This document shows positions 2-63,209 of a stretch of 64,000 nucleotides of DNA, in pieces. The translations under genes and the position numbers were made by a program. The DNA comes from Hyaloraphidium curvatum (Eukaryota > Monoblepharomycota > Hyaloraphidiomycetes > Hyaloraphidiales > Hyaloraphidiaceae). Each line of letters begins with the position of its first letter. The first letter of the stretch is position 1. The notes beneath the pieces were generated by a model. The model searched no databases and was not told where the DNA came from. It saw only the letters and a program-made list of their open reading frames with translations. The stretch spans positions 558,001 through 622,000 of the forward strand of contig JAIVFI010000002.1 of NCBI GenBank assembly GCA_025558095.1. Direction: 5' to 3'.

Positions 2-3000
2 GCTGCGGGCCCCGTCGCCGCCGCCGGCGCCCTGCAGAGCCCCCCGAAGCGTCGGATCGCCGCGGCCAAGCCCCCGTCGGCCAAGGCGCCCGGCAAACCG
101 GGGCGCAAGCCGCCGGCAGGCATACGCAAGATGGATCTGGCATCGGCCGGTGCTCCGGCAGCCCGCGGAGGTGCGACGGGCGCCCCGGACGCGGCAGGCT
201 CGGGAGGCAGCGGAGCGACGCGCAGGAGCAAGGTTGGCGGCACCTCCGCCCGGCACGAGGCGTCTCCGGGCGGGAATGATGCCGCTGCATCCGGTGCCGG
301 GGCTCGCGCTCGCGGAGGAGGTGCTGGGGGCGACGGCGACGGCGCGCGGACCGGAGCTCCGGCTGGAGGGGCGCCGCTCGAAGCGGGAACCCCTCCCGGC
401 GGTCAGGAAGCGCAAGAGCAGGGCGGACGGGGATCGGACGGATCCGCTCCCGCGGCAACGGCTGCCTCGGGCCCTCCGGCGCAGGCTCCGGCTCGACCGA
501 CGGCGCGGAAGCCGAAGAGGAAGCGCGCCGCCGAAGACGACGGGGACGCGGAGCGAGCCGGTGCCGAGCCCGGTGCAGACGGAGCGGACGGAGGTTTGGG
601 CCCCGCCGAGCGCAGCAAGCTCGAGGAGGCGCTCCGTGCCGGCCCCGCCGTGTCGGACGACCTGGAGCGCCGGGCCGCCCTCGCCGCGGACGAGGCCTGG
701 AAGAACACGGAGAACAGCGGGACCACGGACAGCATCTACGCCTCGCACTTCGTGCATCACAAGCTCTGGTGCCGCGGGAACGGCGTGGAGCCCTTCCCCG
801 TCCTGCCGGCCAAGGCGGTGCTGTTCGCCGACTGGACGATGAAGCGGCCGCGCCTCAAGTCCGGCGTGCGGAATGGCTCGAAGAAGGAGCGCACGGCGGA
901 CCAGGGCCCGGCAACCCTGGCGGCTTTGGAAGAGCTGTTCATCACGGGCACTCGGATCGGGCCGAGTGTGGTCGGGGGCGTCCTCAACGCCCTCGAGTTC
1001 TTGCGCAAGGCCACGGCCATCGACTTCCCCGAGGCCGACTTCCCGCAGGCCCACCGCCCGCTCCGAAGCGATCCACGGGTGACGCGGATCGAGAAGCTAT
1101 CGAAGCAGAACAATGCGTCGCGGCAGGAAAACTCGGAGGAGATCAAGTCGGCCGGCGGCGCGTCCAAGACCTACAACCCGCAGCAGTACCGCGACGTCGC
1201 GAACTACCATCTGCTGCAAACGGCGAACGGCAAGAAGGCTGCTGCCACGCCGCAGGAGGCCGCCGCGGGGGTGCGCAATCGGGCACTGCACTTGATCTCG
1301 GGATCCTTCGCGGATCGGTCGTCGGACGTGCGCCCGACCGCCCTTTCGGACGTGCAGCTACGAGAGGAGACTCTCCCGAAGACTGATCGCACTGTGGAGG
1401 TGGGCAGTGACTCCCTGTGGGTCGCGTGGAGCTTCCTGACGCCCGTTTGCCCGCCCAGCTCGGCGTCATCCTCGACAACAGCTCGAAAACCAACAAGGAG
1501 GGCGAGATTTTCGAGAAGGCGATGCTGCGGAACCCGGACGTTCGGATCTGCCCGATCAACTCGCTCGCCCTGCACAGCTACGCAACGTACCACGTCCTGC
1601 AGGAGCGGCCCCCGGGGTTTGCCCCCGTTTTTGACGCCAAGAGCCCGCCGTACGGCCGCAGGGACTGGTACAAGATCCCGCTGTTTCCCGGGAACGGAGA
1701 GAAGGGGGAGATCGCGTACAAGAGTGGGTGGGCGCGGACTTCCCGCCTCTCCGTGAACTCAGGGGCGCTTCTCCGCCGCAGCACACTGGAAAGCCGTCAC
1801 GGGAGCACACACGGCGCTCGGGCTCTTCGACGTCACGAAGAAGACCCACGCTGGGCGCTCGTACGCTCCGCGTCGCGCACATGCCAAGGACTGTCCCGAC
1901 GAGGACATGATGGCCCTGGGGCGGTGGAGCAACGGCAAGGTCTTCCGGGAGCGATATCTGACGTCGATGCCGTGGCCGGCGATCATCGCGACCGCCGACT
2001 CCGACGCCTCCAACCCGGCGGCCTACTACGTCCCGCGTGCGCAGCTCGGTGGGTGCCGTCGGATTGACACCTGGCAAGGCGCCACTGACGCAGCACTCCG
2101 CGATCGATCGCGTCGATCCTGCAGAGCCGCCTGCGGAGCTCCAGTGACGTATCATGCCTTGGGCGGACGCCTCGCTCGCTGTGTACAAGGAGCGCCTCGA
2201 ACTGGACCCGTCCAAGTACCGCGACCCGTGCTGCGAGATGACCTGCAAGAGGTTCATTTTGGAGCGGAAGGTGCGGGGCGTCCCTTTTCCTCGGTCGTGC
2301 GAGCGTGCGTGGCGGTTGCTGACCACCCTGCATTACGCTCGCAGATCCTCCTTCAAGACGCCCCGGAGCTCATCAACCATTTCGCCCCCGAGTTCGGCAA
2401 GGAGGGCTACGATGCGCGCGCGGACGACGGCCTCCCCTTCGTCTTCAAGACCGAACTCTTCCTCTCCACCGAGTACCTGGTATGGCACCGCGAAGCGCTC
2501 GCCAAGATCGGCGAGCTGCGCGAGGCCGTGCGCCACGTGGCTGGGCCGAAGGAGTTTGTGAACGCGATCGTGCCGCTCTTTCAGCAGCAGAACCTACTCT
2601 TCGGGCGGCTCGAGGAGGCTGTCTCGCGCAAGCCGGACGGGGCTTCGGCAGACCAGCGCACCGCGGTGCGGGAGGACGTGCACGAGGACATGACCGTCCT
2701 CTACAACACGCTCGTGGAGACCCTCGACTCCACGATGGAGCAGGCCATGGAGCATCTGACCGAGACGGTCACGGACGTGGTGCAGGACGTTTTCCGCAAG
2801 GCCGTGCCTTCCTTGGCGGCGGCGCTGCAGGCCCAGGTGCCGGCCGTCTCGGCCGGAAGCCCGGGCGCCTCCACCTCCTCCCCTTCGGCCCCGGCCCTGG
2901 CCAATCCCTCGGCAACGGAGCTCCCGATGCTCCTTCCCCGCTCGCAGCCCGTTTCCCGGGACGGTGGTGCCGGCCTGGGTGGTCCCCGACCCCTGCTTTC

Positions 3001-3410
3001 CTTCCCTCGGCCTCCGAGCTTTTCCCCCTCCCAAGCCCCGGCCTCCGCCCTGGCTCCGCAGCCCAGCACCTCTGCAGCTCCCTCGGAACCTGCCCAGGGG
3101 CCTGCAGCTGCCCCCTCGGCCGGCGCTGCGGCGGCAACGGGCCTCGACGCGGCCCAGGCGGAAAAGCGGGCGCTGGAGGCGTCGCGACTGCGGCAAAAGT
3201 ACGGAGCCAAGCTCCAGGGCATCGACATTGTTTTCCACAACGGGCAGATGGTACCGGCGTACGAGCTCGCCGCCGGGAAGCTGTCGATCGAGGACGCCTA
3301 CAACGAGATCTACGTCGGGCACGATGGCAAGATCTCGCTGGAGGAGCTGGACAGGGACTTTGGGCCCAAGTGGCGGCGGAACAACAACCGCATCCAAACC
3401 GAATACGGAA
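2..3410 (+). pseudogene. Crypton copy A, tyrosine-recombinase gene, 5' cut by window, broken
   Basis: Near-identical to copy B at 10783-14597 (position p here equals p+10970 there at the left edge). Exons by comparison: 2-1399, 1459-1723, 1782-2048, 2125-about 2296, 2345-3410. The recombinase core is present: the HxxR motif (THAGR), the GRW motif and the ERYLTSMP tyrosine box all lie in exon 3. The copy looks dead. In exon 4 the codon that is CAA in copy B reads TGA (2145-2147). The next donor, GTGCAT in copy B, is changed to GAGCGT. Homology stops abruptly at 3410, inside the GCR1_C-like DNA-binding domain, after which the frame runs 50 residues into unrelated sequence. It keeps five residues (VLNAL) that copy B lacks. 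N-terminal region is Ala/Gly/Pro-rich. Product and family are firm; loss of function is inferred. Confidence 0.85.
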
Positions 3411-4752: not shown

Positions 4753-5823
4753 CTATTGGAGATAATGATATACTACTATGCTGAACACAACCAGTGCAGC
4801 ACCAGTCCACCAGATCCGGCTATCCTGGTGCTCAGGCTGTTCACAAAGCAGGCCTGACAGAACAATAGACAAAGTCATAGCAAAAGTCTTCACAATGTTG
4901 TCCAAGTGCTTGATGACCAGTGCTACGAGAACACCACCAACGGCACTGTTGAGCACCACAAAGTAGACCCAAGAATGCCAACCCTTGAAGAGTCGCTGCG
5001 GATCTGAAGAGATCTCATATGCAAGTACCAAACAGGATACACAGAGAGAAATGAAGGCAAGCCGCAAATTATTAGCAGTCAAACCACTGATGCCTTCGGA
5101 CTGCTTGTGTGTACTAGCCAAACCCGAATCACTTGTCTCCAATGGCTTTGAAACAGTTTCTTGCTCTGGCAGCGGTCGGAGCTCTCTCGAGACAGGTGGG
5201 CTTTTGCTGCCCCCCTTGAAGACCTTTTCCAAGTAGACGCCTGAAAAGCCGGACGTTGTCGCTGCAAGGAGGACTGCGATCATCCCCAAAGCAGTACTGT
5301 GATGCTTAGAGTCGCTCCATTTGTGTGACTGACTTGAATACTGTACCATGCAAATTCCTCCCATAAGCAAAATTAAGCTGGACCATTGAAGCAGAGAAAG
5401 TCGGCGACCCAGAATGAGCACCATGAACACTGCCGTTGTTAGAATCTTGGATTGGCTAGTAAGCTGGTAGGTTACCGGGTCCAAATGCGTTAACGCAAAA
5501 TAGAGCAAGTTGCTCTGTACGACGTAGAGCCCAGAAGGAAGTATCATCCGCACGGTTGCCAGGCGTTCTGCTCCCACACGGAACTGGGCCTTGACAAAAG
5601 AGATAAGTACGTGATATCCAGAACCCATGCATGCTATTGCGATCCATGCAAAAAGTTTCAGGAGCTCTGCAATGACAACTGCAGCAGACGCCAAGTAAAC
5701 TTCTCCTTTCCCATTCCGAGTTTCATGAAGCACGACAATCAGGGAGACATTTTGAGCGACAAGGAGACCAACTAGGGCAGGCTTGAGCCACACAGAGATT
5801 CGGAACTCCATGAAGACGGGCAA
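4753..5823 (-). CDS. SLC35A-type nucleotide-sugar transporter
   Basis: 356 residues in one uninterrupted frame with about ten hydrophobic segments. It reads as a Golgi UDP-sugar/CMP-sugar antiporter of the SLC35A (Nuc_sug_transp) family, which brings activated sugars from the cytosol into the Golgi lumen in exchange for the nucleoside monophosphate. Family hallmarks seen: VVIAELLKLF early, the stretch YVVQSNLLYFALTHLDPVTYQ, QSKILTTAVFMVLILGRRLS, SGVYLEKVFKG, the NNLRL segment in place of the usual RNIQL, GGVLVALVIKHLDNIVKTFA, and a short polar tail. A hydrophilic loop of about 50 residues (after YLEKVFKG) is longer than usual. Length matches the family (320-400). It would supply substrate to the Golgi glycosyltransferases elsewhere in the window. 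The exact sugar cannot be told from sequence; UDP-galactose or UDP-GlcNAc are the usual substrates. Confidence 0.9.
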   Translation of the reverse strand: MPVFMEFRISVWLKPALVGLLVAQNVSLIVVLHETRNGKGEVYLASAAVVIAELLKLFAWIAIACMGSGYHVLISFVKAQFRVGAERLATVRMILPSGLYVVQSNLLYFALTHLDPVTYQLTSQSKILTTAVFMVLILGRRLSLLQWSSLILLMGGICMVQYSSQSHKWSDSKHHSTALGMIAVLLAATTSGFSGVYLEKVFKGGSKSPPVSRELRPLPEQETVSKPLETSDSGLASTHKQSEGISGLTANNLRLAFISLCVSCLVLAYEISSDPQRLFKGWHSWVYFVVLNSAVGGVLVALVIKHLDNIVKTFAMTLSIVLSGLLCEQPEHQDSRIWWTGAALVVFSIVVYHYLQ

Positions 5824-6001
5824 TGCCTAATCCGCTTTTTCACAAGCTTTAGCTAAGAAAGCAGAAACCTGTAAAGTGGTGCAGAAACCTGTCTCGCCGG
5901 GCTAGATCTTTCAACTGCAGGGGGTTGGGCGCTGACCAGTTCGACATTAAGCACTTGAATTAGGCGAATTGGTTAGGCGCGACAAAAGCCAACCAACATC
6001 G

Positions 6002-6575
6002 AGATCGCAACATCGCGACACTGAAGCAGCAGAAGAAGCGGAGGGAAACTGGTGGAGGTGCAGCACCTCTAGAAGGTGAACCATTGGTCCGAGGAACAGG
6101 CTCTCCAAAGCTGGGCAACCGCTTCTATCACAATGGGAAGTCGACGGCAATCACCACGTGTACACTTTCTTGACCGAGGAGCGCAAGGCACGCGGAGAAG
6201 CTGAGGCAGCGGAGTAGGGAAGCGGGCAGGATGGCGCGGACGGCTTTGGGTGGGATTCTTGGTCGTGGCCTCTTGGCAATCTTGAAGATCGCAACATCGC
6301 GACACTGAAGCAGCAGAAGAAGCGGAGGGAAACTGGTGGAGGTGCAGCACCTCTAGAAGGTGAACCATTGGTCCGAGGAACAGGCTCTCCAAAGCTGGGC
6401 AACCGCTTCTATCACAATGGGAAGTCGACGGCAATCACCACGTGTACACTTTCTTGACCGAGGAGCGCAAGGCACGCGGAGAAGCTGAGGCAGCGGAGTA
6501 GGGAAGCGGGCAGGATGGCGCGGACGGCTTTGGGTGGGATTCTTGGTCGTGGCCTCTTGGCAATCTTGAAGATCG
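6002..6575. repeat. 284-bp tandem duplication
   Basis: Two head-to-tail copies, 6002-6285 and 6286-6569, followed by the first six bases of a third. I found no difference between the copies by eye, so the duplication is recent or homogenised. The second copy runs into an open frame starting at 6515; the first copy carries the same ATG at 6231 but meets a stop shortly after the junction. It lies between the 5' end of the transporter gene (minus strand) and the 3' end of the SGNH gene (minus strand). Confidence 0.9.
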
Positions 6576-7018
6576 TTGATATTTCTTTTGCAATTTTGTT
6601 TGGTTTCTTAATGATGATCTTCATCAACCAAAAGACTCAGATCATCGGCCAGTCTCTCTTACCTAGCTTAGATTACGTGCAGCAGTGCACAGTCTTGATG
6701 GAGAAGGCGAAGACCCTGCGCCTGCAGGGGCGTAAAGGGCCGACGGTCGTCTACGTATACGAAATGATCACGAGGTGTGGCCTCACCTCGCCCAGGACCT
6801 CATCCACCGCCCGCGCATCTCCTAAGAAGTTTGCCGAAGCTAGGCTGCCGAAACCGCCGCCTAACGCGGTGTTCGAGAAAGAGTTTGTCGACATATGCAA
6901 CCAAATAACGACTCATCTCGCGGCCAAACCCCCCTACAAGCGGATGATCGGCTTAGGCGCACTTTATTCAACCGCATGGGCGAATGCGCATCTCATATCT
7001 TCCCGTTCAACATGTTGA
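6515..7018 (+). CDS. weak hypothetical ORF with one membrane segment
   Basis: 167 residues. The start ATG lies inside the duplicated unit; residues 18-40 (LKIVDISFAILFGFLMMIFI) are strongly hydrophobic and would form one transmembrane helix. The rest is unremarkable and basic. It overlaps the 3' end of the SGNH gene on the other strand by 12 bases. No family recognised. It may be a chance frame created by the duplication. Confidence 0.2.
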   Translation: MARTALGGILGRGLLAILKIVDISFAILFGFLMMIFINQKTQIIGQSLLPSLDYVQQCTVLMEKAKTLRLQGRKGPTVVYVYEMITRCGLTSPRTSSTARASPKKFAEARLPKPPPNAVFEKEFVDICNQITTHLAAKPPYKRMIGLGALYSTAWANAHLISSRSTC

Positions 7019-8985
7019 CAAGGATATAATCTTGAATTTGCTTGATCTCACTTGTGACCCATTAACTCCCACCACATCCGCCTCAATGGCCCGAAATTGA
7101 ACATGTGTTGCCAATCCTGGTGGAATCCCAAACCCCAGGAGCCCGTTTAAGGTAGGTGAGGGTTGAAATGTAGGACGCTTGACATCCATTGCAATCATGA
7201 AGGATTGGGAGACCCTGCTTCCATATCCTGTCTCTCCAGGCTGATAAGTGCCGTAGAGAGGGAGCTGTTTTGAGGGGTCATGGGAGAAGGACATCATTGC
7301 ATTGCCAAGGTTGGCGTACGAACGCAGATAAGTTAGGATCAACCTGGGATTCTCACCGAACCGCACAGGAAACGAGAGTGTGGCATTGGCTTTGCTTGAT
7401 ATCCAGCCAGGCTTGTCAGCGCGCTCGTACACAAGCGAGAATCCAGATTCACTAAGTGGAGGAAGGCCACTTGTGTTGGTTCCCGATGGCTGCATCCCCG
7501 TCATGGCAGCATACATGACCACCGGATGATCACACACTTTCAGTTTATCGAGGAGCCCGGGGTTGATTGGCGGTGGGAGTCCACGGTGGCCTGGCCGACT
7601 GTAAATGCGACAGTAGGGTTGCCACTGGGACACCAGACATGACTTCAGTGTGTCCGCTATGGCAACATGCACTTCCCATCGGGGATGAGTGCCTGTGCCC
7701 CAGTACACATGCGGGATGTTGGGGTCCGAAGCGGAATCGCGGACGGCAGTGGCGACGTCGGTGAAGCTGACCCAGGGAACCCCATACTGTGTAGCCACCA
7801 GCTTTATGATCTGATTGACGTTGGCACACTTGTCAAGGTAAGCACAGGTGTTGACAAAAACGATTGGCAGGTCCGGTTTCATTTTCTTTATCAGCAAGAC
7901 CAGCGCTTCATATGCTGCCATGAACGAAGGCCTGGAAGATAGCCCCGCCAGGCTGTCCTGGACCTCCCAAGAATCGTTGACAATGAAGTCCACTAGTAGT
8001 AGATCAATCTGGAAGTCTGCCGCCAACCATATTGGGAACAACGGGAGCGCAGCAGTCACGGTTGTCCCGCCGGAGGCATAATTGTGAACGAACACTTTGC
8101 GAGATGCCCATTCACTATCATTCGAATTATGAAAGACAGCGCCTAGCCACCCTCCAAATCGTGCGGACCAGGCGCATGCCTTTCCGGAAACGACGCCCTT
8201 CTGGTTGCACCCAAGGCCACCGGTTTCACTCCCGCCGACAACTGCTACGTTGAATTGCTCAGGTCCATCCTCCGTTAGCCGAAGTAGAATCTGTTGCCGT
8301 GGTGGCCCCAGTTTTCGAGATAACAGCTATGTGGCTCGAACATCCAGCCCCAGCGCAAGCATTCCGCAGGGTTCGCCAAATTTGCATCGAAACACCTGAG
8401 CCACTTGCCTTCGCCTTCGAGTTCGTTACTACAGCGCCGCTTTGGTGCCCTGGTGTTGGGAGGCCCAACCACTTTCGCCTGTACGTTTCGTACAACAGGC
8501 ACGAATCCCTCCTCAACTACGACATCGATAACTAAACAATATACGACAACCAGCAGAGGGGTGTATGAGAATTCATAATAGATTCCGGAGCACTTCACGA
8601 AATGAAGACGCCTTCCAAAGGAACCAATGACTGTTTCGTTACTCTGCAGCGTAGCATAGGCGTGTATAATATCGTTCAAGAGAACAGTGGAATTAGTTTT
8701 GATGCACAATCCAAAAGAGGTTTGTTCTCCAACCCAGACAGAAGTGCTCACTCCCCATCCAGAAACGGATGCTTCGATGGGGAGTTTCGCAAGGTGAGGC
8801 AAGTATTTTTCTAAAGGGTAAACGAACGGCTGCAGTAGTTGTTTCCCCTCATAGCCTGCTGATGACACCTTAGGTGTAGGAGAGGGCGACGACGCAACCT
8901 TTTCGGGACGAGGCAGAACCATAGACAACAATAATGTCGCTACCACTCCGACTGCAAGTGGAACGAGGAGTGACGCGCGGTACAT
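7007..8985 (-). pseudogene. SGNH/TBL-like Golgi esterase or O-acyltransferase, one frameshift
   Basis: Two adjoining minus-strand frames (8985-8275 and about 8279-7007) read as one protein of about 650 residues. The first has a type II signal anchor (residues 7-25, VPLAVGVVATLLLSMVLPR) and ends with a Cys/Trp-rich segment (GKWLRCFD, WMFEPHSCYL) reminiscent of the domain before the catalytic part of plant TBL/PMR5 proteins. The second, read from just upstream of its first ATG, gives the SGNH block I (VAVVGGSETGGLG), the block with NYASGGTTVTAALP, DLLLVDFIVND (block III Asn) and a C-terminal THPRWEVH His block. Known members add or remove acyl groups on glycans in the secretory pathway. The frames differ by one base near 8280 with no GT-AG intron to explain it, so this is either a recent pseudogene or a base error. 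Confidence 0.6.
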
Positions 8986-10782: not shown

Positions 10783-13700
10783 ATGGACACCATCGCCGCC
10801 GCGGCGGCCGCGCTGGAGCCCGTCGCGGGCCCAGGTGCCGGCGGTGACGTCGACTCGACCCCCGCCCCGCGCGCCGCGCCCAAGCCGCGCAGGCCCGCCG
10901 CCGGAGCCGCCCCCGCCCGGGAGACGGGAGAAAGGAAGCGGAAGAGCGCGGGGGAGGGCGAGGGCGGCGCCGCTGCGGGCCCCGTCGCCTCCGCCGGCGG
11001 CCTGCAGGGCCCACAGAAGCGTCGGATCGCCGCGACCAAGCCCCCGTCGGCCAAGGCGCCCGGCGAACCGGGGCGCAAGCAGCCGGCAGGCATACGCAAG
11101 AAGGATCTGGCATCGGCCGGTGCTCCGGCAGCCCGCGGAGGTGCGGCGGGCGCCCCGGACGCGGCGGGGTCGGGAGGCAGCGGAGCGACGCGCAGGAGCA
11201 AGGTTGGCGACGCCGTCGTCCGGCACGAGGCGTCCCCGGGCGGGAATGATGCCGCTGCATCCGGTGCCGGGGCTCGCGCTCGCGGAGGAGGTGCTGGGGG
11301 CGACGGCGACGGCGCGCGGACCGGAGCTCCGGCTGGAGGGGCGCCGCTCAAGGCAGGAACCCCTCCCGGCGGTCAGGAAGCGCAGAATCCTGGCGGCCAG
11401 GGATCAGATGGATCCGCTCCCGCGGCAACGGCTGCCTCGGTCCCTCCGGCGGAGGCTCCGGCTCGACCGACGGCGCGGAAGCCAAAGAGGAAGCGCGCCG
11501 CCGAAGACGACGGGGATGCGGAGCGAGCCGGTGCCGAGCCCGGTGCAGACGGCGCGGACGGAGGCTTGGGCCCCGCCGAGCGCAGCGAGCTCGAGGAGGC
11601 GCTCCGTTCCGGCCCCGCCGTGTCGGACGACCTGGAGCGCCGGGCCGCCCTCGCCGCGGACGAGGCCTGGAAGAACAGGGAGAACAGCGGGACCACGGAC
11701 AGCATCTACGCCTCGCACTTTGAGCACTACAAGCTCTGGTGCGGCGGGAACGGCGTGGAGCCCTTCCCCGTCCTGCCGGCCAAGGCGGTGCTGTTCGCCG
11801 ACTGGACGATGAAGCGGCCGCGCCTCAAGTCCGGCGTGAGGAAGGGCTCGAAGAAGGGGCGCACGGCGGACCAGGGCCCAGCAACCCTGGCGGCTTTGGA
11901 AGAGCTGTTCGTCACGGGCACTCGGATTGGGCCGGGTGTGGTCGGGGGCGAGTTCTTGCGCAAGGCCACGGCCATCGACTTCCCCGAGGCCGATTTCCCG
12001 CAGGCCCACCGCCCGCTCCGAAGCGATCCTCGGGTGACGCGGATCGAGAAGCTCTCGAAGCAGAACAGCGCGTCGCGGCAGGCAAACTCGGAGGAGATCA
12101 AGTCGGCCGGCGGCGCGTCCAAGACCTACAACCAGCAGCAGTACCGCGACGTCGCGGACTACCATCTGCTGCGAGCGGCGAACGGCAAGAAGGCTGCTGT
12201 CACGCCGCAGGAGGCCGCCGCGGGGGTGCGCAACCGGGCACTGCACTTGATCTCGGGATCCTTGGCGGATCGGTCGTCGGACGTGCGCCCGACCGCGCTC
12301 TCGGACGTGCAGTTGCGCGAGGTGACTCTCCCAAAGACTGATCGCATTGTGGAGGTGGGCAGTCAATCTCCGTGGGTCGCGTGAAGCTTCCTAACGCTTG
12401 TTTGCCCGCCCAGCTCGGCGTCATCCTCGACAACAGCTCGAAAACAAACAAGGAAGGGGAGATCTTCGAGAAGGCGATGTTGCGGAACCCGGACGTCCGG
12501 ATCTGCCCCATCAACTCGCTCGCCCTGCACAGCTATGCAACGTACCACATCCTACAGGAGCGGCCCCCGGAGCTTGCCCCCGTTTTTGACGCCAAGAGCC
12601 CGCCGTACGGCCGCAGGGACTGGTACAAGATCCCGCTGTTTCCTGGGAACGGAGAGAAGGGGGAGATCGCGTACAAGAGTGGGTGGCCGCGGACTTCCCG
12701 CCTCTCCGTGAACTCACGGGCCCTTCTCCGCCGCAGCGCACTGGAAAGCAGTCACGGGAGCACACACGGCGCTCGGGCTCTTCGACGTCACGAAGAAGAC
12801 CCACGCTGGGCGCTCGTACGCTCCGCGTTGCGCGCATGCCAAGGACTGTCCCGACGAGGACATGATGGCCCTGGGGCGGTGGAGCAACGGCAAGATCTTC
12901 CGGGAGCGATACTTAACGTCGATGCCGTGGCCGGCGGTCATCGCGACCGCCGACTCCGACGCCTCCAACCCGGCGGCCTACTACGTCCCGCGTGCGCAGC
13001 TCGGTGGGTGCCGTCGAATTGACACCTGGCGAGGCGCCACTGACGCAGCACTCCGCGATCGATCGCGTCGATCCTGCAGAGCCGCCTGCGGAGCTCCAGC
13101 AACGCATCATGCCTTGGGCAGACGCCTCGCTCGCTGCGTACAAGGAGCGCCTCGGACTGGACCCGTCCAAGTACCGCGACCCGTGCTGTGAGATGACCTG
13201 TAAGAGGTTCATTTTGGAGCGGAAGGTGCGGGGCGTCCCTTTTCCTCGGTCGTGCGTGCATGCGGGCGGTTGCTGACCACCCTGCTTTACTCTTGCAGAT
13301 CCTCCTTCAAGACGCCCCGGAGCTCATCAACCATTTCGCCCCCGAGTTCAGCAAGGACGGCTACGATGCGCACGCGGACGACGGCCTCCCCTTCGTCTTC
13401 AAGACCGAGCTCTTCCTCTCCACCGAGTACCTGGTATGGCACCGCGAAGCGCTCGCCAAGATCGGCGAGCTGCGCGAGGCCGTGCGCCACGTGGCTGGGC
13501 CGAAGGAGTTTGTGAACGCGATCGTGCCGCTCTTTCAGCAGCAGAACCTACTCTTCGGGCGCCTCGAGGAGGCTGTCTCGCGCAAGCCGGACGGGGCGTC
13601 GGCAGACCTGCGCACCGCGGTGCGCGAGGACGTGCGCGAGGACATGACCGTCCTCTACAACACGCTCGTGGAGACCCTCGACTCCACCATGGAGCAGGCC

Positions 13701-14597
13701 ATGGAGCATCTGACCGAGACGGTCACGGACGTGGTGCAGGACGTGTTCCGCAAGGCTGTGCCTTCCTTGGCGGCGGCCCTGCAGGCCCAGGTGCCGGCCG
13801 TCTCGGCCGGAAGCCCGGGCGTCTCCACCTCCTCCCCTTCGGCCCCGGCCCTCGCCAATCCATCGGCAACGGAGCTCCCGGTGCTCCTTCCCCGCCCGCA
13901 GCCCGTTTCCCAGGACGGTGGCGCCGGCCTGGGTGTTCCCCGCCCCCTGCTTTGCTTCCCCCGGCCTCCGAGCTTTCCCCCCTCCGGAAGCCCGGTCTCC
14001 GCCCTTGCTCCGCAGCCCAGCACCTCTGCAGCTCCCTCAGAACCTGCCCAGGGACCGGCAGCTGCCCCCTCGGCCGGCGCTGCGGCGGCAACGGGCCTCG
14101 ACGCCGCCCAGGCGGAGAAGCGGGCGCTGGAGGCGTCGCGGCTGCGGCAAAAGTACGGAGCCAAGCTCCAGGGCATCGACATTGTTTTCCACAACGGGCA
14201 GATGGTACCGGCGTACGAGCTTGCCGCCGGGAAGCTGTCGATCGAGGACGCCTACAACGAGATCTACGTCGGGCGCGATGGCAAGATCTCGGTGGAGGAG
14301 CTGGACAGGGACTTTGGGCCCAAGTGGCGGCGGAACAACAACCGCATCCAAACCGAATACGGAAGGCGGAAAGCGATCAAGGAGGAGCTGGAGAAGATCC
14401 GGCGCGGCCCGCCCGCAAAGTCGCCGACGGCGGCGCTCCGGGCCCTCAAGGACAGGTTCACGGACAATGGGGCGGAGCTGACGGCGCGGCAGGTGAGCGA
14501 CCGGCTCCAGAAGGCGGCGCGGGACGCCGCCAAGGCTGCGAAGGAGGCGGCGGGCGGGGCGGGGACGGGTGCGGCCGCGCAGGGGGCTGCGGCGTGA
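10783..14597 (+). CDS. Crypton tyrosine recombinase with GCR1_C DNA-binding domain, intact
   Basis: Five exons, 10783-12354, 12414-12678, 12737-13003, 13080-13255 and 13299-14597, join in frame to 1192 residues. Introns of 59, 58, 76 and 43 nt are GT-AG; the first contains an in-frame TGA in this copy, which supports splicing. Residues 1-260 are Ala/Gly/Pro-rich with Lys/Arg clusters. The recombinase domain has a candidate Arg at 497 or 502, HxxR at H635-R638, the W of GRW at 661 and the nucleophile Y671. Near the C terminus (about 1065-1130) KLSIEDAYNEIYVG, then DFGPKWRRNNN and a basic helix fit the GCR1_C domain of Cryptons. Between these lie a helical segment and a Pro/Ser/Ala linker. Such proteins cut and rejoin DNA as site-specific recombinases. 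Compared with copy A it lacks five residues (VLNAL) but all frames are open. Confidence 0.85.
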
Positions 14598-20482: not shown

Positions 20483-21058
20483 ATCAATTTCTATGCCGGT
20501 CCCCTCGGGCCGGCGGTGCGCTTTTCGCAAGGAACCGCATTTCAATGGAATCTTTCAATACATCCAGCATGATCTAGTCTCTCTGCCGTTCTCGCTCGAT
20601 CAAGCTCGGCTCTTCGTGCTGGTAGCTACTTGCTCCATTTGGCTTCCGTGATTCATTAAAGAAGGTCCAGACCGTGCAGGACAAGGGCATCCGTGTTGCT
20701 GAAGAGGTCTCGAGTACGGTCAAATGCGGATCGAAGCATTGTAGGCCGCGTCCTCATCAACGACGTAGTGCGACCGTCCGGTTTGCGGCGACGAAAAAGA
20801 GCGAGACCCTTGAGCTTAGTGCTGCCCGCACCTAGCGCGGTCCGTAGCAGCGTCGGCACCAATTTGCGCGTGGCATTGCCCATGCTGCCGATCCTTAGCC
20901 CCAAACTAACTACCCGAAGAGGAGCTTCAGTGAAGCGTGCAGTCCGACTGGTCAAGTTCGAAAGCTTGCCATCTTCCTGCGGTTCAATGTGATCAAGCCT
21001 CAAGACTCCACCCCGGCACGATTCCGGCGGTGCTCAAACATCGGGTTGGGTCTGCGCG
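20483..21058. repeat. left arm of long inverted repeat
   Basis: About 576 bp, matching 28421-29007 in reverse complement at roughly 85 percent by eye, with scattered substitutions and small indels. Well-conserved blocks include TCTATGCCGGTCCCCTCGGG at the outer end and GATTCCGGCGGTGCTCAAAC at the inner end. On the minus strand it contains a 115-residue open frame (21003-20656, MRLDHIEPQEDGKLSNL) that is interrupted in the other arm, so coding is doubtful. The arms enclose an FkbM methyltransferase and a glycosyltransferase fusion. Confidence 0.85.
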
Positions 21059-22165: not shown

Positions 22166-22260
22166 AGTTGCAGCTTTTTGTATCAACAGCCGTATCTGTA
22201 CAAAAAAGGACATCCATCATCCCGCGCCGGCCGGTGGCGCTTTCCGGACCATAAAGTTCC
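22166..22260. repeat. third, short copy of the inverted-repeat outer end
   Basis: AGTTGCAGCTTTTTGTATCA at 22166-22185 matches 20453-20472 with one difference. It is followed, as on the left, by CCATCA and a GCCGGCCGGTGGCGCTTTCC-like stretch that resembles CGGGCCGGCGGTGCGCTTTT of the left arm. It lies directly upstream of the FkbM gene, so it marks a boundary of repeat-derived sequence and argues against the more upstream start codon at 22178. Confidence 0.6.
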
Positions 22261-22360
22261 CGTTGGTTTAAGAAGACCCCGCTCTTGGCACCACTTTTCT
22301 CTCCACAGCGGACGCGAAAAGCAGAACGCACCCCAAAGGAGCGGCTCAGTCCTACGAGGA

Positions 22361-23368
22361 ATGCGCTGGAGACCATATTTTTATGTGATACTTGCCTCGC
22401 TATGCTGTATTGCCGCTTGGGGCCACCGGCCGGGCTGGTTTCAAGGCTACTCTGGAAGAAATGAAACAGCTTTTCTTTGCAGCCTTGAAGACTTGCCGCT
22501 TCTTATCGTCAAGACGGCTTATGAGCCCCCGTTTTATATTTCAATGTATCATCCCAATGACGATGCTCCTCGGGCCTCACTGCTCACAACTGGTCAGTAC
22601 TATGAGACTCCGGATCTGCATTCTATGGCCACCGTGATTAGAAGGTTCCCGCAGGGAATTGTGTTAGATGTGGGAGCCAACATAGGCGTATTCAGTTTGT
22701 TCGCAGCATCACGAGGGGCTCCTCGGGTGATAGCCTTTGAGCCAAACCCAAGGAACGCCGCCAAGTTACGCCAGTCAATTTCTGCGAATGCTGGCTTTAA
22801 GAATATCATTACAGTATTGGAAGCTGGTGTCAGCAATGTTACTGGCACTGCAGAATTTTCAGCACCTGTCGGCAATTCCGGTATGGGACGCATTTCTCAT
22901 GATAAGATCCAGCCCAATAAAAGACATGCAAAGGGCTTCGTAAGTAAGGTTCGAATGGTTTCTATCGATAGCAGTGTTCCAAAAAATGCAGAAGTTTCTT
23001 TCATGAAGATTGATGTTGAAGGAAACGAGTTGTTTGCTTTGCGCTCTGCCACTGCTCTGATACAGTCGCAACGAGTTCATGTGATGGTGATGGAAATCAC
23101 GCAAGGTGGAGGCTTTGAAACAGTTGGGATTATCGAATTGTTTGAATTTCTGTACCAGCATGGCTATTCAGCTGCTGTTGTGAAGAGCACCGGAGATCCT
23201 TTCGATGGCAAGCTACAAACTTTGCAGGACTTAAAAGAGAGTTTGCAGAGCTTCGGACAGGTTAGAATGCATCGTGAAGTCCTTTGTCAGCTGCTAACCC
23301 ACAACCAGGCACGAAATGTCTTTTTCGTATCTTCAACTCTGATGAAGCAACAATCTTCGAATGCTTGA
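22361..23368 (+). CDS. FkbM-family SAM-dependent methyltransferase, type II membrane protein
   Basis: 335 residues from the ATG at 22361; an in-frame ATG at 22178 adds 61 residues that are repeat-derived, so the later start is preferred. It begins MRWRPYFYVILASLCCIAAW, a short basic tail plus a membrane anchor, so the catalytic domain would face the Golgi lumen. Motif I is VLDVGANIG (residues 101-109), followed by FEPNPRNA (motif II acidic residue Glu 127) and, later, SFMKIDVEGNE, the FkbM post-motif signature. Methyltransf_21/FkbM enzymes O-methylate sugars, so a glycan is the likely substrate. No introns and lower GC than the Crypton copies. It shares the space inside the long inverted repeat with the glycosyltransferase fusion at 26287. 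A broken relative lies at 43305-43595. Confidence 0.85.
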   Translation: MRWRPYFYVILASLCCIAAWGHRPGWFQGYSGRNETAFLCSLEDLPLLIVKTAYEPPFYISMYHPNDDAPRASLLTTGQYYETPDLHSMATVIRRFPQGIVLDVGANIGVFSLFAASRGAPRVIAFEPNPRNAAKLRQSISANAGFKNIITVLEAGVSNVTGTAEFSAPVGNSGMGRISHDKIQPNKRHAKGFVSKVRMVSIDSSVPKNAEVSFMKIDVEGNELFALRSATALIQSQRVHVMVMEITQGGGFETVGIIELFEFLYQHGYSAAVVKSTGDPFDGKLQTLQDLKESLQSFGQVRMHREVLCQLLTHNQARNVFFVSSTLMKQQSSNA

Positions 23369-26286: not shown

Positions 26287-28391
26287 ATGCGCATGAGATG
26301 GCGACGAATGCTCACCTTGTTCGTGATATTCGCAACAATAACGTTGTCAGATTCGTTGCTTCCAAAGCGCCTCGAACACGTATGGCCCCAGGCGAAACTC
26401 ACCTCCAGTATGACCGACGGTGCAAACACGTCCGTCTATAGCCACGACGGCATCTTCGCAAACATGCAACATACTTCATTTCATCGAGGCACTCAATCCC
26501 TTCGCTTGGATGATGAAGGACCTGTGCTGGCTGACCAACTTAATGCCTCGCTGTTTCCCTTTCTGGAGGCCTCGAACACCGGCGGGAATGTCATGGTTTC
26601 TTTTGCCTCTGCCAGCTACTGGGATATGACCCTTAACTTTGTGAAGTCCGTGCAACAAGCTGGGATTCCCAATCTCCTTATCGTGACTATGGATAATGCG
26701 TCTTCTTTGTTCGCGAGTGAGGTTGGGATACCCTTCTTCCCATACCATGCTCACCTCAATTCCTCCGATGGCGGTACCGACGAGTTCGGAACGGACATCT
26801 TTCGAGATATGGTGAACCGTCGATGTTCGTTGATTGCGGTGGCTTTGAGAGCCGGTTTCAATATCCTGCTCAGCGACGTCGACGTCGTGTGGAAACGGAA
26901 CCCTTTCCCGTTTTTTTCTCAAGGGGACTACGACCTTGAAATTCAATCAGATTCTCGAAGGGCTTTCACCGAACGCATGCCACAGACTCCATTCAGCGAT
27001 TTCGTAAATGCGGGGCTGTTTTATGCCAGGGGCATACCCAAAGTGACAGACCTTTTCCAGACTCTTGCGGATCGGCTTCGTGAGGATCCGACGCGGGATG
27101 ATCAGACAGAGCTCAATCGTCTCTTGAATGACAATGCGTTCAACATTAGGTACAGGGTGCTCGATCCTGTTCTGTTTCCGAATGGATTCCAGCACTTTTC
27201 CCGATCTATTTCGGCTCGCGCTGGCGTCGATCCTTTCTGCATTCATAATAACTGGGTCATTGGTCAGACCACCAAAATATACAGGTTTCGAGAGGCTGGA
27301 GTTTGGCTTCAAGATCCCCCTGAGCGCTTGGATGGAACAGGACGCTATCTCGCGATTTATGAGCCTTCCATTGGCAACAACGGATGGAACAACGTGCGCA
27401 ACAGCCTGCGTGCAGGGCTTGCCATCGCCCAAGTCTTGAACCGGACATTGATTCTCCCCAAGACCTATAGTCACCACATGCATCCAACGACGGTGACGTT
27501 AGACTACTACTTAAGTTACCAGGATTTCGTTTCTCAATTTCCGGTACGTATTTCGTGATTGTGGTCTTATTGTTGCTGACAAAGGGACAACAGAACATTC
27601 GTGAAGCTGCTTTTGTCGAGAGGGTGTTTTCAGAGAAACCGGACCAGATCTTTCACATCGACATTGGTCCTTCCAGCCATGGAAATCTGCCCACTGGAGT
27701 ACCTTTGGTGAACGTCACCGCTGCTGGGCGCTTTAGGGGAGCCTCCGACGACGAGCTTTCCACTTGGTTTGCTCCCTACGCTCACCAACGAGTACTTCAC
27801 CTGACAAGTTCGTTCCGGCGGTTTCACAAGTTCTTGAACCGCTCAAGAAACTCCGAATTCGATGACAAACTTGCAAAGGCTCTGAAGCCTTCATCAGACG
27901 TTCGCTATGCTGCGGGCCTTGTGTATAATCTTCTCAAGGAGAGAGCAAACGCTTCAACGGGGAACGGGATCTTCAACTGCGTCCACATCCGCAGGGGCGA
28001 TTTCTTAAAAGTGCATGAAGCAGAAAGGCCGCTGGAAGAGATTGCAAGTCTTCTGGCATCAATGCTCGATCCAACGACCGCTCTCTACGTGGCGAGCGAT
28101 GCCAGCCCTGATCCTGACTTCCAAAAAACTCTATTGCGTCGATTTCCGCACGCATTTTTCTGGGGTAACTTCATGCAACCCGCATTCCAACATCTCTACG
28201 ACGCGGAACTCGGTCCTTCAATGCTGATTGGAGCAATTGAGCAGAGGCTCTGTTCCTGGGGAGCAAAGTTCGTGGGCAACATCTACTCGACCTTCACGAC
28301 ACACGTTTGCTTCCTTCGTGGTCGGATGGGAAAGTCCGAGTGCCCTGACATCTACGGGAGGGAGCAACCAAGCGATTGGCCGTTCTTCTAG
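26287..28391 (+). CDS. bifunctional glycosyltransferase: nucleotide-sugar transferase plus O-fucosyltransferase-like domain
   Basis: Two exons, 26287-27543 and 27594-28391, joined in phase 0 across a 50-nt intron, give 684 residues. An in-frame ATG at 26245 would add 14. A basic tail and anchor (RRMLTLFVIFATITLSDSLL) mark a type II Golgi protein. The first domain (about 100-340, counted from 26245) is of the Nucleotid_trans (PF03407, GT77-like) type: LNFVKSVQQAGIPNLLIVTM, then AGFNILLSDVDVVWKRNPF with the metal-binding D211-D213, and FVNAGLFYARG. The second domain, from about 350, starts NNVRNSLRAGLAIAQVLNRT LILP and in exon 2 has NCVHIRRGDF and a terminal block AIEQRLCSWGAKF then STFTTHVCFLRG, as in GDP-fucose O-fucosyltransferases. 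So it may add two sugars in turn. The domains are well supported; the combined activity is inference. Confidence 0.85.
27544..27593 (+). other. spliceosomal intron, 50 nt
   Basis: Donor GTACGT, branch-like TTGCTGAC, acceptor ACAACAG. The intron has an in-frame TGA, and removing it links QFP to NIREAAFVERV with no frame change, within the fucosyltransferase-like domain. This is the clearest intron of a non-mobile gene in the window. Confidence 0.85.
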
Positions 28392-28420
28392 CCCGTTTGA
28401 GCGTTTTACGCCGGCTAAAC

Positions 28421-29007
28421 GTGCAGACGCAACCGACGTTTGAGCACCGCCGGAATCGTGCCCAAGTGTAGTGTTGAGGCTTAGTCACATTGAACCGCAG
28501 CAAGATGGCAAGCTTTCGAACTTGATCAGTTGGACTGCACGCTTCACTGAAGCTCCTTTTCGGTCATGGGTTTGGGCTAAGGATCAGCAGCATGGGCAAC
28601 GCCACGTGCAACTTGTTTCCGATGCTGCTTCGAACCGAGCTAGGCGCGTGCATCACTAAGCTCAACGGTCTCGCTCTGTTTCGTCGCCGCAAACTGGACG
28701 GTCGCATCATCGACTGGGACGGCCGACAATGCTGGCGCAGCGTTCCCCACTCTGACCGTACTTAAGACCTCTAGATCTCTTCAGCAACGCGGATGCCCTT
28801 GTCCTGCACGTTTTGGACCTTCTTGAATCAATCCCGGAAGCTAGATTGGAACGAGTAGCTACCAGCACGAAGAGCCGAGCCAGCTGGATCCAGCGAGAAC
28901 CGCAGAGAGACTAGATCATGCTGGATTTATTGAAAGGAATTCAGTTGAAACGCAGTTCCTTGCGAAAAGCGCACCGCCGGCCCGAGGGGACCGGCATAGA
29001 AATTGAT
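28421..29007. repeat. right arm of long inverted repeat
   Basis: Reverse complement of 20483-21058 at roughly 85 percent. It starts 29 bases after the stop codon of the glycosyltransferase fusion, so no room is left for a long 3' UTR outside the repeat. Compared with the left arm it has small indels that break the minus-strand frame found there. Confidence 0.85.
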
Positions 29008-60674: not shown

Positions 60675-60981
60675 CATCGCAGTGCCGCAATCGTTGTCGA
60701 AGACAAGACCTTTGGGCGGACTCCGAGCTGAACTGGAAATTGGTTTTTCCCCAACAGGAAGCTCGACCAGCTCGAGCACGAGCGTTTTCCGCGAGAAAGA
60801 ATGAACTAATGCTGGAATAACCCTTGCCGACCTAGCGAGGATAACCTCACAATTGTGCGCGAAACAATGTTTGCAATGTGCTCCCGTGAGAGACGAACAC
60901 CAGCAGGCCTAATGTTGAGTGTCATTTGCGAACTGTTCGCCGCCTGAGTAGGGTATGGTTCCAGATGTTCATGTTCGACGT
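60675..60981. repeat. left arm of inverted duplication (3' end of GT61 and its neighbour)
   Basis: Matches 63122-63405 in reverse complement at about 85 percent. Contains the last 50 codons of GT61 on minus and, on plus, a broken version of the C-terminal tail of the gene at 63278-63487. Protein similarity extends beyond both limits (LWQWYYVEHEHL versus TWQKGCFVEHEHL). Confidence 0.85.
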
Positions 60982-61891
60982 AATACCATTGCCATAGTAT
61001 CGTTTCGGGAAGGCCACGAATGCTCCCAGCATTGGTCCGCCACAAGGTCGTAGAATTAGGAGCGTGCAATCGCGATTCCTTGAAGGTTACAACCTCGATG
61101 ATGAGTGCCCATGGCCATGAAAACAGTGCGTGAACTAATCCAGCTCCATGAACGCCAATAACTACACATGCCGATGCGAAAGTCTGGACAGTTTCATCGA
61201 GCGTTTCGTTACCCCTAAAGACCACAAACGACGTTCTGTACCGCTTGAGCGACGTTTTCAACTGATCTTGTAGTATGTCTTCATCAAGAATGTGCCGCCC
61301 CCGGTTGGGCTTCCTCACTATAAGGACAACATGCCGGCAAGAATGCCGGACATTGGCTGATGCATTGGACGCCAAAAGCGCCAACTCTCTGAGGCAGTTT
61401 GGACATTGGGGTGTGCTTACATCGTACGAAAGAACATGAGACGCAGTGATCGCTGTTTGGTTCTGCCACGGTGTTCGATGGTCAAGGAAAAGAAGAGACA
61501 CGTTTGCCGGCGACAAGAATGGTTCCAGCCACGCCGTGAAGAAACGCTGCAGATACAAAGGAACAACAGCTAGGACGTCGCTCTTTTGCCTAGACAGACT
61601 TCGCAATGGCGGCAGTAGCCTCACGGCACGAGTCAAACAATCCAAGATCAAGTGAAAGTACGCGAAGGGGTACGGATGTCCGTAACAATTAAAATCAACG
61701 ACAGTAAGTCCGCTCTCCCGTCTGACACTCGGCATCGAAGATTTATCACATTCCCGGCACGAATCTGGAATACCCAAGCCCTCAACCTCTGAAGACCTTT
61801 GGAACTCAACGCTGTAGCCGACCAAGTACGACAATATAAGTAGCATTCCGATGGCACTTCCCCAGAAAGCGATGACTTTGCCAGACACCAT
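60806..61891 (-). CDS. GT61-family glycosyltransferase
   Basis: 361 residues, one exon. A type II anchor (VIAFWGSAIGMLLILSYLVG) starts it. The DUF563/GT61 pattern follows: NCYGHPYPFAYFHLILDCLT (start of the catalytic domain), VVLIVRKPNRGRHILDED, VQTFASACVVIGVHGAGLVH with the GVHGAGL signature, and ALFSWPWALIIEVVTFKE (the acidic E-V position). Members add beta-1,2-xylose, arabinose or O-GlcNAc in the Golgi or ER. The length is typical. Several N-x-S/T sites are present. The last 60 residues are duplicated in inverted orientation at 63060-63281. Substrate cannot be told. Confidence 0.85.
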   Translation of the reverse strand: MVSGKVIAFWGSAIGMLLILSYLVGYSVEFQRSSEVEGLGIPDSCRECDKSSMPSVRRESGLTVVDFNCYGHPYPFAYFHLILDCLTRAVRLLPPLRSLSRQKSDVLAVVPLYLQRFFTAWLEPFLSPANVSLLFLDHRTPWQNQTAITASHVLSYDVSTPQCPNCLRELALLASNASANVRHSCRHVVLIVRKPNRGRHILDEDILQDQLKTSLKRYRTSFVVFRGNETLDETVQTFASACVVIGVHGAGLVHALFSWPWALIIEVVTFKESRLHAPNSTTLWRTNAGSIRGLPETILWQWYYVEHEHLEPYPTQAANSSQMTLNIRPAGVRLSREHIANIVSRTIVRLSSLGRQGLFQH

Positions 61892-62582
61892 GGCCGGCTT
61901 TCCTGCGCAAGTTCTTCAGAGCGGAAGTGATCGCATTCGTCTATGGCGGAGGTCGCGACAAATCAATCCCCGCCTAACATACCGTACACACATTCTGTGT
62001 CCGTCCACGAACACGTCGCGGTGCCTAGAGCACTCATCCGGGCAATGATTGGAACTTTTTGCGTGGCCGACAAGCGCAGGGCTCGAAGCTGGAGCTCTTG
62101 GCGCGAAGTCAAGCCTTCGGAACAGGTACACGTATCCCTGTCACAACGCTCCCAGTGTGTGCCTACGTGTTCTGTTAGGATCTCCAGCATTCGCGATGGG
62201 CGCAGGACTTGTCTGCGCGGGTCTACGGCTCTGCATCCGGAGCGATGGCTCGTCGCCCCATTCTGGGTGCACACCATGCCCTTCGCTCCCAACCTGGGCT
62301 CCAACGGCCAAACGTCGTTTCTGGCATAGCGTAAGCAGCTCATTAAGCACACTGGTGGGCTTGAAGATCGTCCTGTCCCGAAAGCAGATAAGTGATAGCG
62401 GGATGTCAACCGGACGTCAAGACCATAGGTCCGCCGTTTCGCTCCGAAACGGCCCTTCAGCCATTCTATTCCATTCGGTCTCCATGGGTGGCCATTGCTG
62501 CGCCAGTGCTGCGCCAGTAGCTGTTTTTAACTCGACTTTGTACCAGAATAGAAGCTGTGGCTTACTTTCGGTGTCCCATCTC
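61892..62582. other. no gene assigned
   Basis: Frames open on both strands (61963-62409 minus, 62049-62618 plus) are Arg/Ser-rich or Cys-containing without recognisable motifs. Could hold decayed exons of the gene at 62583-63209. Confidence 0.4.
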
Positions 62583-63209
62583 CTACGTTCGAACGATGTA
62601 GTCCTCCATGGGGTTTAGCGTCCTACGCGCGACATTTGAAGGCTCGAGACCGGATCTGCGAAGTTCATGGTAGAGGGGAGTGCTAACACCTTGACTGTAT
62701 GACCCTATGACCCAAGGTGGCAGGCTGCCGGCCCTGATTTCTTGCACGCATATCGTCCCAATGTCCTTCAACGCATCGATGCCTATCTTGAAGTTCATCA
62801 ATCTGGCCCGCTTAACCTATCAACTACCGCCTTCTCCGCCTTTCCCTTGTCTTTTATGGCACATAATATATTGAGCCGAGTACGCGCGTCAGCAGTCTCA
62901 AAAATGGGGCGGATAATTCTACGTCTGCACCCTGCCGTTCCATATCTTTCCGCATGCCCGCGATAGGGTTCCCTGTCCAGAAGAGGTCGAGATCCGACCA
63001 AAGCACGTTGTAGCCCAACTCCAGAGCGCGAAGAACCTTTGTGACTTCAACTTGACCTTGTGGCGGACCGATGCTGGGAGCATTCGGGGCCTTCCCCAAA
63101 CAAAACATGGCAAAAAGGGTGTTTCGTCGAACATGAACATCTTGAGCCATACTGCTCGCAAATGAACCTCAACATTAGGCCTGCTGGTGTTCGCCTCACA
63201 GGGGAGCAC
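62583..63209 (-). pseudogene. nucleotide-sugar transferase (Nucleotid_trans-like) remnant
   Basis: The minus-strand frame around 63060-62960 reads EVTKVLRALELGYNVLWSDL then DLFWTGNPIAGMRKDME: the Kxxxxxx-iLxxGyxVLwsDxDxxWxxnP block of PF03407 glycosyltransferases, with the DLD metal site. A later frame (FKIGIDALKDIGTICVQE and LPPWVIGSYSQGVSTPLYHE) is compatible with the downstream part. Frames change at least twice. It is a relative of the N-terminal domain of the fusion gene at 26287, not a close copy. Confidence 0.6.

Follow-up and report, generated by a model that had tools for sequence, protein, structure and literature searches.

A single gene in the window (the whole stretch of DNA analysed, 64,000 nucleotides) carries a GT77-type nucleotide-diphospho-sugar transferase domain (PF03407) fused to an O-fucosyltransferase domain (O-FucT, PF10250). 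The gene begins with an ATG at 26287 and ends with a TAG stop at 28391, its spliced product is 684 residues long, and both domains exceed the Pfam curated cut-off in that product. An earlier sequence-only reading of this DNA had proposed two unrelated transferase families in one chain, interrupted by a 50-nt intron, and had named these two profiles as the search to run; we recovered the same start, exons, intron and stop, and the profile search returned both families (PF03407, E 6.6e-36; PF10250, E 1.8e-11). The features of the gene and its downstream flank, in window coordinates, are:

26287..27543, + strand: exon 1, residues 1-419, containing the predicted N-terminal anchor, the entire PF03407 domain and the start of the O-FucT domain.
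26308..26364, + strand: predicted N-terminal signal anchor MLTLFVIFATITLSDSLLP, residues 8-26, after the basic MRMRWRR start.
26665..27288, + strand: PF03407 nucleotide-diphospho-sugar transferase domain (GT77 type), residues 127-334, E 6.6e-36.
26875..26883, + strand: DxD motif Asp197-Val-Asp199, in the context LLSDVDVVW.
27373..27393, + strand: GNNGWNN, residues 363-369, with Asn369 aligning with POFUT1 Asn43 in a distant alignment where the pairing depends on a two-residue gap.
27379..28307, + strand, intron-interrupted: PF10250 O-FucT domain, residues 365-657, E 1.8e-11.
27544..27593, + strand: 50-nt intron, GTACGT...CAACAG, with the PF10250 match collinear across it.
27594..28391, + strand: exon 2, residues 420-684 and the stop, containing the remainder of the O-FucT domain.
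27984..28004, + strand: HIRRGDF, residues 550-556, with His550 and Arg552 aligning with POFUT1 His238 and Arg240.
28287..28295, + strand: Ser651-Thr652-Phe653, aligning with POFUT1 Ser355-Thr356-Phe357, the beta-phosphate-binding segment.
28420..29007, + strand: repeat just downstream of the fusion, with an inverted copy at 20483-21058 (84% identical).

The two enzymes join at about residues 335-357 (roughly nucleotides 27289-27357), across a short inter-domain linker of about 25-30 residues; this join lies within exon 1, and the fusion is therefore independent of splicing. The sequence-only reading had linked the halves through an exon and an intron: the in-frame exon 1 does join them, but the intron sits inside the O-FucT domain, which begins in exon 1. 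A transcript ending before 27543, which had been offered as grounds for rejecting the fusion, would only truncate the O-FucT half and leave the fusion in place, since the join is in exon 1. None of 2000 shuffles of exon 1 by base kept an open frame. Enumeration of the in-frame GT-AG pairs near the junction found many that leave an open frame as far as the stop; the donor of 27544/27593 stands well ahead of the others, being the closest to consensus, and its acceptor is a good CAG. If this intron is retained the frame closes four codons on. Scored apart, exon 1 matches PF10250 with 23.8 bits (profile 8-62) and exon 2 with 23.1 bits (profile 152-319), and the spliced protein gives one collinear match of 44.7 bits, about the sum of the two, which supports the intron. 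A gmd gene on contig C24 likewise has a short intron (GTGAGC...CAG) at the expected place. Repeats lie close to the gene and might point to a mis-joined gene model or an assembly artefact, yet we consider this very improbable, as PF03407 and the O-FucT start share one uninterrupted open exon, the profile match continues collinearly across a good intron, and the stretch contains zero N.

The earlier description of a type II Golgi protein is borne out as far as a predicted type II secretory protein. The basic start followed by hydrophobic residues 8-26, the most hydrophobic 19-residue segment of the protein (mean Kyte-Doolittle 1.72), suggests a signal anchor, and the eight N-glycosylation sequons are consistent with a position in the lumen. 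With two transferase domains and an anchor, the latter predicted from hydropathy alone, in one chain, the product would have the make-up of a bi-domain Golgi-type enzyme.

The GT77-type half matches PF03407 over profile positions 3-208 of 208, at 124.7 bits against a cut-off of 22. Asp197 and Asp199 of its DxD motif are invariant among the aligned PF03407 proteins of the genome, the nearest PF03407 relative there is 22% identical, and no solved structure was matched by the sequence of this half. An AlphaFold prediction of exon 1, run without relatives, reached a pLDDT of 37 and was discarded as structural evidence.

The O-FucT half covers profile positions 8-319 of 326 in PF10250, its 44.7 bits standing against a cut-off of 31.5, and among solved structures its best match is POFUT2 (E 2.4e-4), with POFUT1 next. 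In alignments with the solved relatives and with the genome's own O-FucT proteins, HIRRGDF matches the HxRR-D-F of POFUT2, and the residue correspondences to POFUT1 listed above, which come from a distant alignment, are good but not certain. In C. elegans POFUT1, activity is lost when Arg240 is changed and falls 25-fold with N43A, whilst R40A lowers the hydrolase activity only slightly (PMC3180450). POFUT1 Arg40 is not kept in the fusion, where GNNG replaces GRFG, and because the effect of R40A is slight we did not count it as a defining residue. A POFUT1-like gene on C44 is a better O-FucT match (135.9 bits), which makes it unlikely that the fusion is the POFUT1 orthologue. The PF10250 family also takes in enzymes with other donors, as in the plant GT106 rhamnosyltransferases.

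A duplicate of the C-terminus, 40 codons including the stop, lies as an orphan 75 kb off at C2:510282-510401 (L013, 4280-4402, - strand). Between the copies there are 27 base differences, distributed 3/5/19 over codon positions 1/2/3 (P = 9e-5 against equal rates). This third-position excess is the pattern that selection on a gene would leave, and it indicates that, for at least some of the time since the copies diverged, the O-FucT C-terminus was under constraint at the protein level. Besides this duplicate, no close copy of either half turned up in the genome, and a close-relative search of viral contigs and GTDB genomes returned no relatives of either half.

For the function, we infer the Golgi location, both activities, the donors, the transfer order and the acceptor. 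The gene product would be a bi-domain, membrane-anchored Golgi-type glycosyltransferase in which the C-terminal O-FucT half (GT-B type) would fucosylate a secreted protein or glycan, with GDP-fucose as the probable donor, and the N-terminal GT77-type half (GT-A, DxD, metal-dependent) would add, preferably onto that fucose, a second sugar, for which a UDP-sugar-derived pentose or hexose is the likeliest choice. One polypeptide would then make a sugar-Fuc disaccharide by relay, fucose first and cap second. Both domains are near full profile length and the catalytic motifs of both halves are present, and we think it reasonably probable that two working halves, fucosylation included, are combined in one Golgi-type protein; the order of fucose then cap is less certain. 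Alternatively, only one half may be active, the other serving as a scaffold or to bind the acceptor, for which EXTL3 sets a precedent: its GT47 half binds no UDP (PMC9178029). Of the two halves, O-FucT has moved further from its profile, at 44.7 bits and with the Arg40 counterpart lost, but both active sites retain their key residues, and the codon differences from the duplicate indicate constraint on the O-FucT half for at least some of the time since the copies diverged; a single active half is plausible to us, though unlikely. As to the fucose donor, two strong matches to gmd (GDP-mannose 4,6-dehydratase) suggest that the genome can probably make GDP-fucose or a relative of it.

The second sugar is placed on fucose in this proposal because characterised GT77 enzymes (RGXT, AgtA) act on fucose. 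The plant GT77 enzymes RGXT1-4, of rhamnogalacturonan II, add alpha-1,3-xylose to fucose (PMC6646851, PMC12168206); they are Golgi GT77-type enzymes, as the fusion is predicted to be, with L-fucose as the acceptor, but they have a single transferase domain without an O-FucT half. Dictyostelium AgtA (GT77) is an alpha-galactosyltransferase acting on the Skp1 glycan, which it extends beyond the fucose, and protists often have fusions between consecutive enzymes of this pathway (PMC8724618). The Dictyostelium pathway resembles our case in having a GT77 enzyme on a fucose-containing glycan, and in the beta3GalT/alpha2FucT (GT2 + GT74) that performs consecutive steps in one protein, but its enzymes are cytoplasmic, its fucosyltransferase belongs to family GT74, and the partner of AgtA is a WD40 propeller, not a transferase. 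Animal POFUT1 and POFUT2 share the O-FucT domain with its HxRR-D and Ser-Thr-Phe motifs, but have a single catalytic domain, target EGF or TSR repeats and lack a GT77 half. The exostosins EXT1, EXT2 and EXTL3 (GT47 + GT64) also place a GT-B-type and a GT-A-type domain in one Golgi protein (PMC9178029), but the families are different, the domain order is opposite and the role is heparan sulphate polymerisation. Bi-domain glycosyltransferases are already known as a kind; for the PF10250/PF03407 pairing, we found no description in the open-licence papers searched, and none of them names both accessions. The joining of a fucose-placing enzyme to a member of a family that extends fucose suggests a relay. 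Should both halves act on a single acceptor, the disaccharide, fucose plus a GT77 cap, would be predictable from sequence alone, and the gene would be a further case of evolution joining consecutive glycosylation steps.

Other transferase fusions occur in this genome. A 722-residue frame (C5; L017, 2925-5090, + strand) carries a GT34/GT77-type and a GT32-type (Gly_transf_sug) domain, both above cut-off. A 675-residue frame (C6; L018, 3268-5292, + strand) has an O-FucT domain above cut-off at residues 63-337, followed by a segment with the motif VLYMDGDAVVLRR, over which lies a sub-threshold GT8 match (E 0.14); this is a probable second fusion of O-FucT with a GT-A domain, in reversed order. 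We do not count a 1061-residue GT77 protein (L014) as a triple enzyme: its N- and C-terminal flanks looked transferase-like by eye but yielded no convincing Pfam match. GT77 acceptors are diverse, spanning arabinans, fucose and protein glycans, and the halves of our fusion might accordingly act independently on different glycans, paired merely for co-localisation. We regard this as distinctly improbable, as the short linker and the probable reversed fusion suggest that the pairing itself matters.

On contig C2 the fusion belongs to a repeat-rich region of low GC3, at about 506-640 kb as sampled in pieces. Together with the fusion itself (window 26287-28391), this region holds other glycan genes (window 4756-8326, 22166-23365 and 60809-61915; loci L013, L014, L025 and L047), with reverse-transcriptase and hAT-like frames interspersed. 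GC3 is 0.57 in the fusion, 0.52 and 0.57 in nucleotide-sugar transporters, 0.46 and 0.51 in FkbM methyltransferases, 0.52 in a GT61 gene, 0.55 in the 1061-residue GT77 protein and 0.57 in a sulfotransferase-like gene with a weak Pfam match. The values for comparable genes on other contigs are 0.80-0.96, and a GT4 gene inside the window has 0.80. Overall GC is mostly 0.63-0.73 in more distant C2 samples, against about 0.50-0.58 around the glycan genes; the low-GC stretch is patchy, and low GC recurs in a sample from 472-478 kb (0.56). The 506-640 kb stretch is thus a possible low-GC glycan island with transposon-like frames. The small outlier chromosome of Ostreococcus has low GC, an abundance of glycosyltransferase, methyltransferase and sugar-transporter genes, and a link to virus resistance (PMC5082852); the C2 stretch recalls it, which we offer as a lead only. 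The fusion is tied to a region of odd composition carrying surface-glycan genes. In its fullest form, the proposal would be that one chain, with a previously undescribed domain pair, makes a capped fucose disaccharide (Xyl- or Gal-alpha-Fuc), and that it evolves in a region of low GC, repeats and glycan genes which behaves like the Ostreococcus outlier chromosome and diversifies the cell surface against viruses or predators; we hold this proposal as a whole to be unlikely.

The window contains further duplications. A direct duplication of 3.4 kb (2-3410 and 10972-14364) is 94.8% identical, and between 60657 and 63424 copies of a GT61 gene are inverted and partly decayed, with a GT77-like fragment at 62962-63027. 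As for the organism, LHC and PsbO genes were not detectable in the genome, which makes an ordinary alga unlikely, and it is apparently non-photosynthetic; PUFA synthase gave no match over cut-off in the genome, and an 18S pattern matched nothing there. Fonticula (70.3% GC) was weighed as a possible candidate. Zn(II)2Cys6 domains (Zn_clus) are common in fungi, though not proof of a fungus, and here they have at least 96 matches genome-wide, often two close together per frame.
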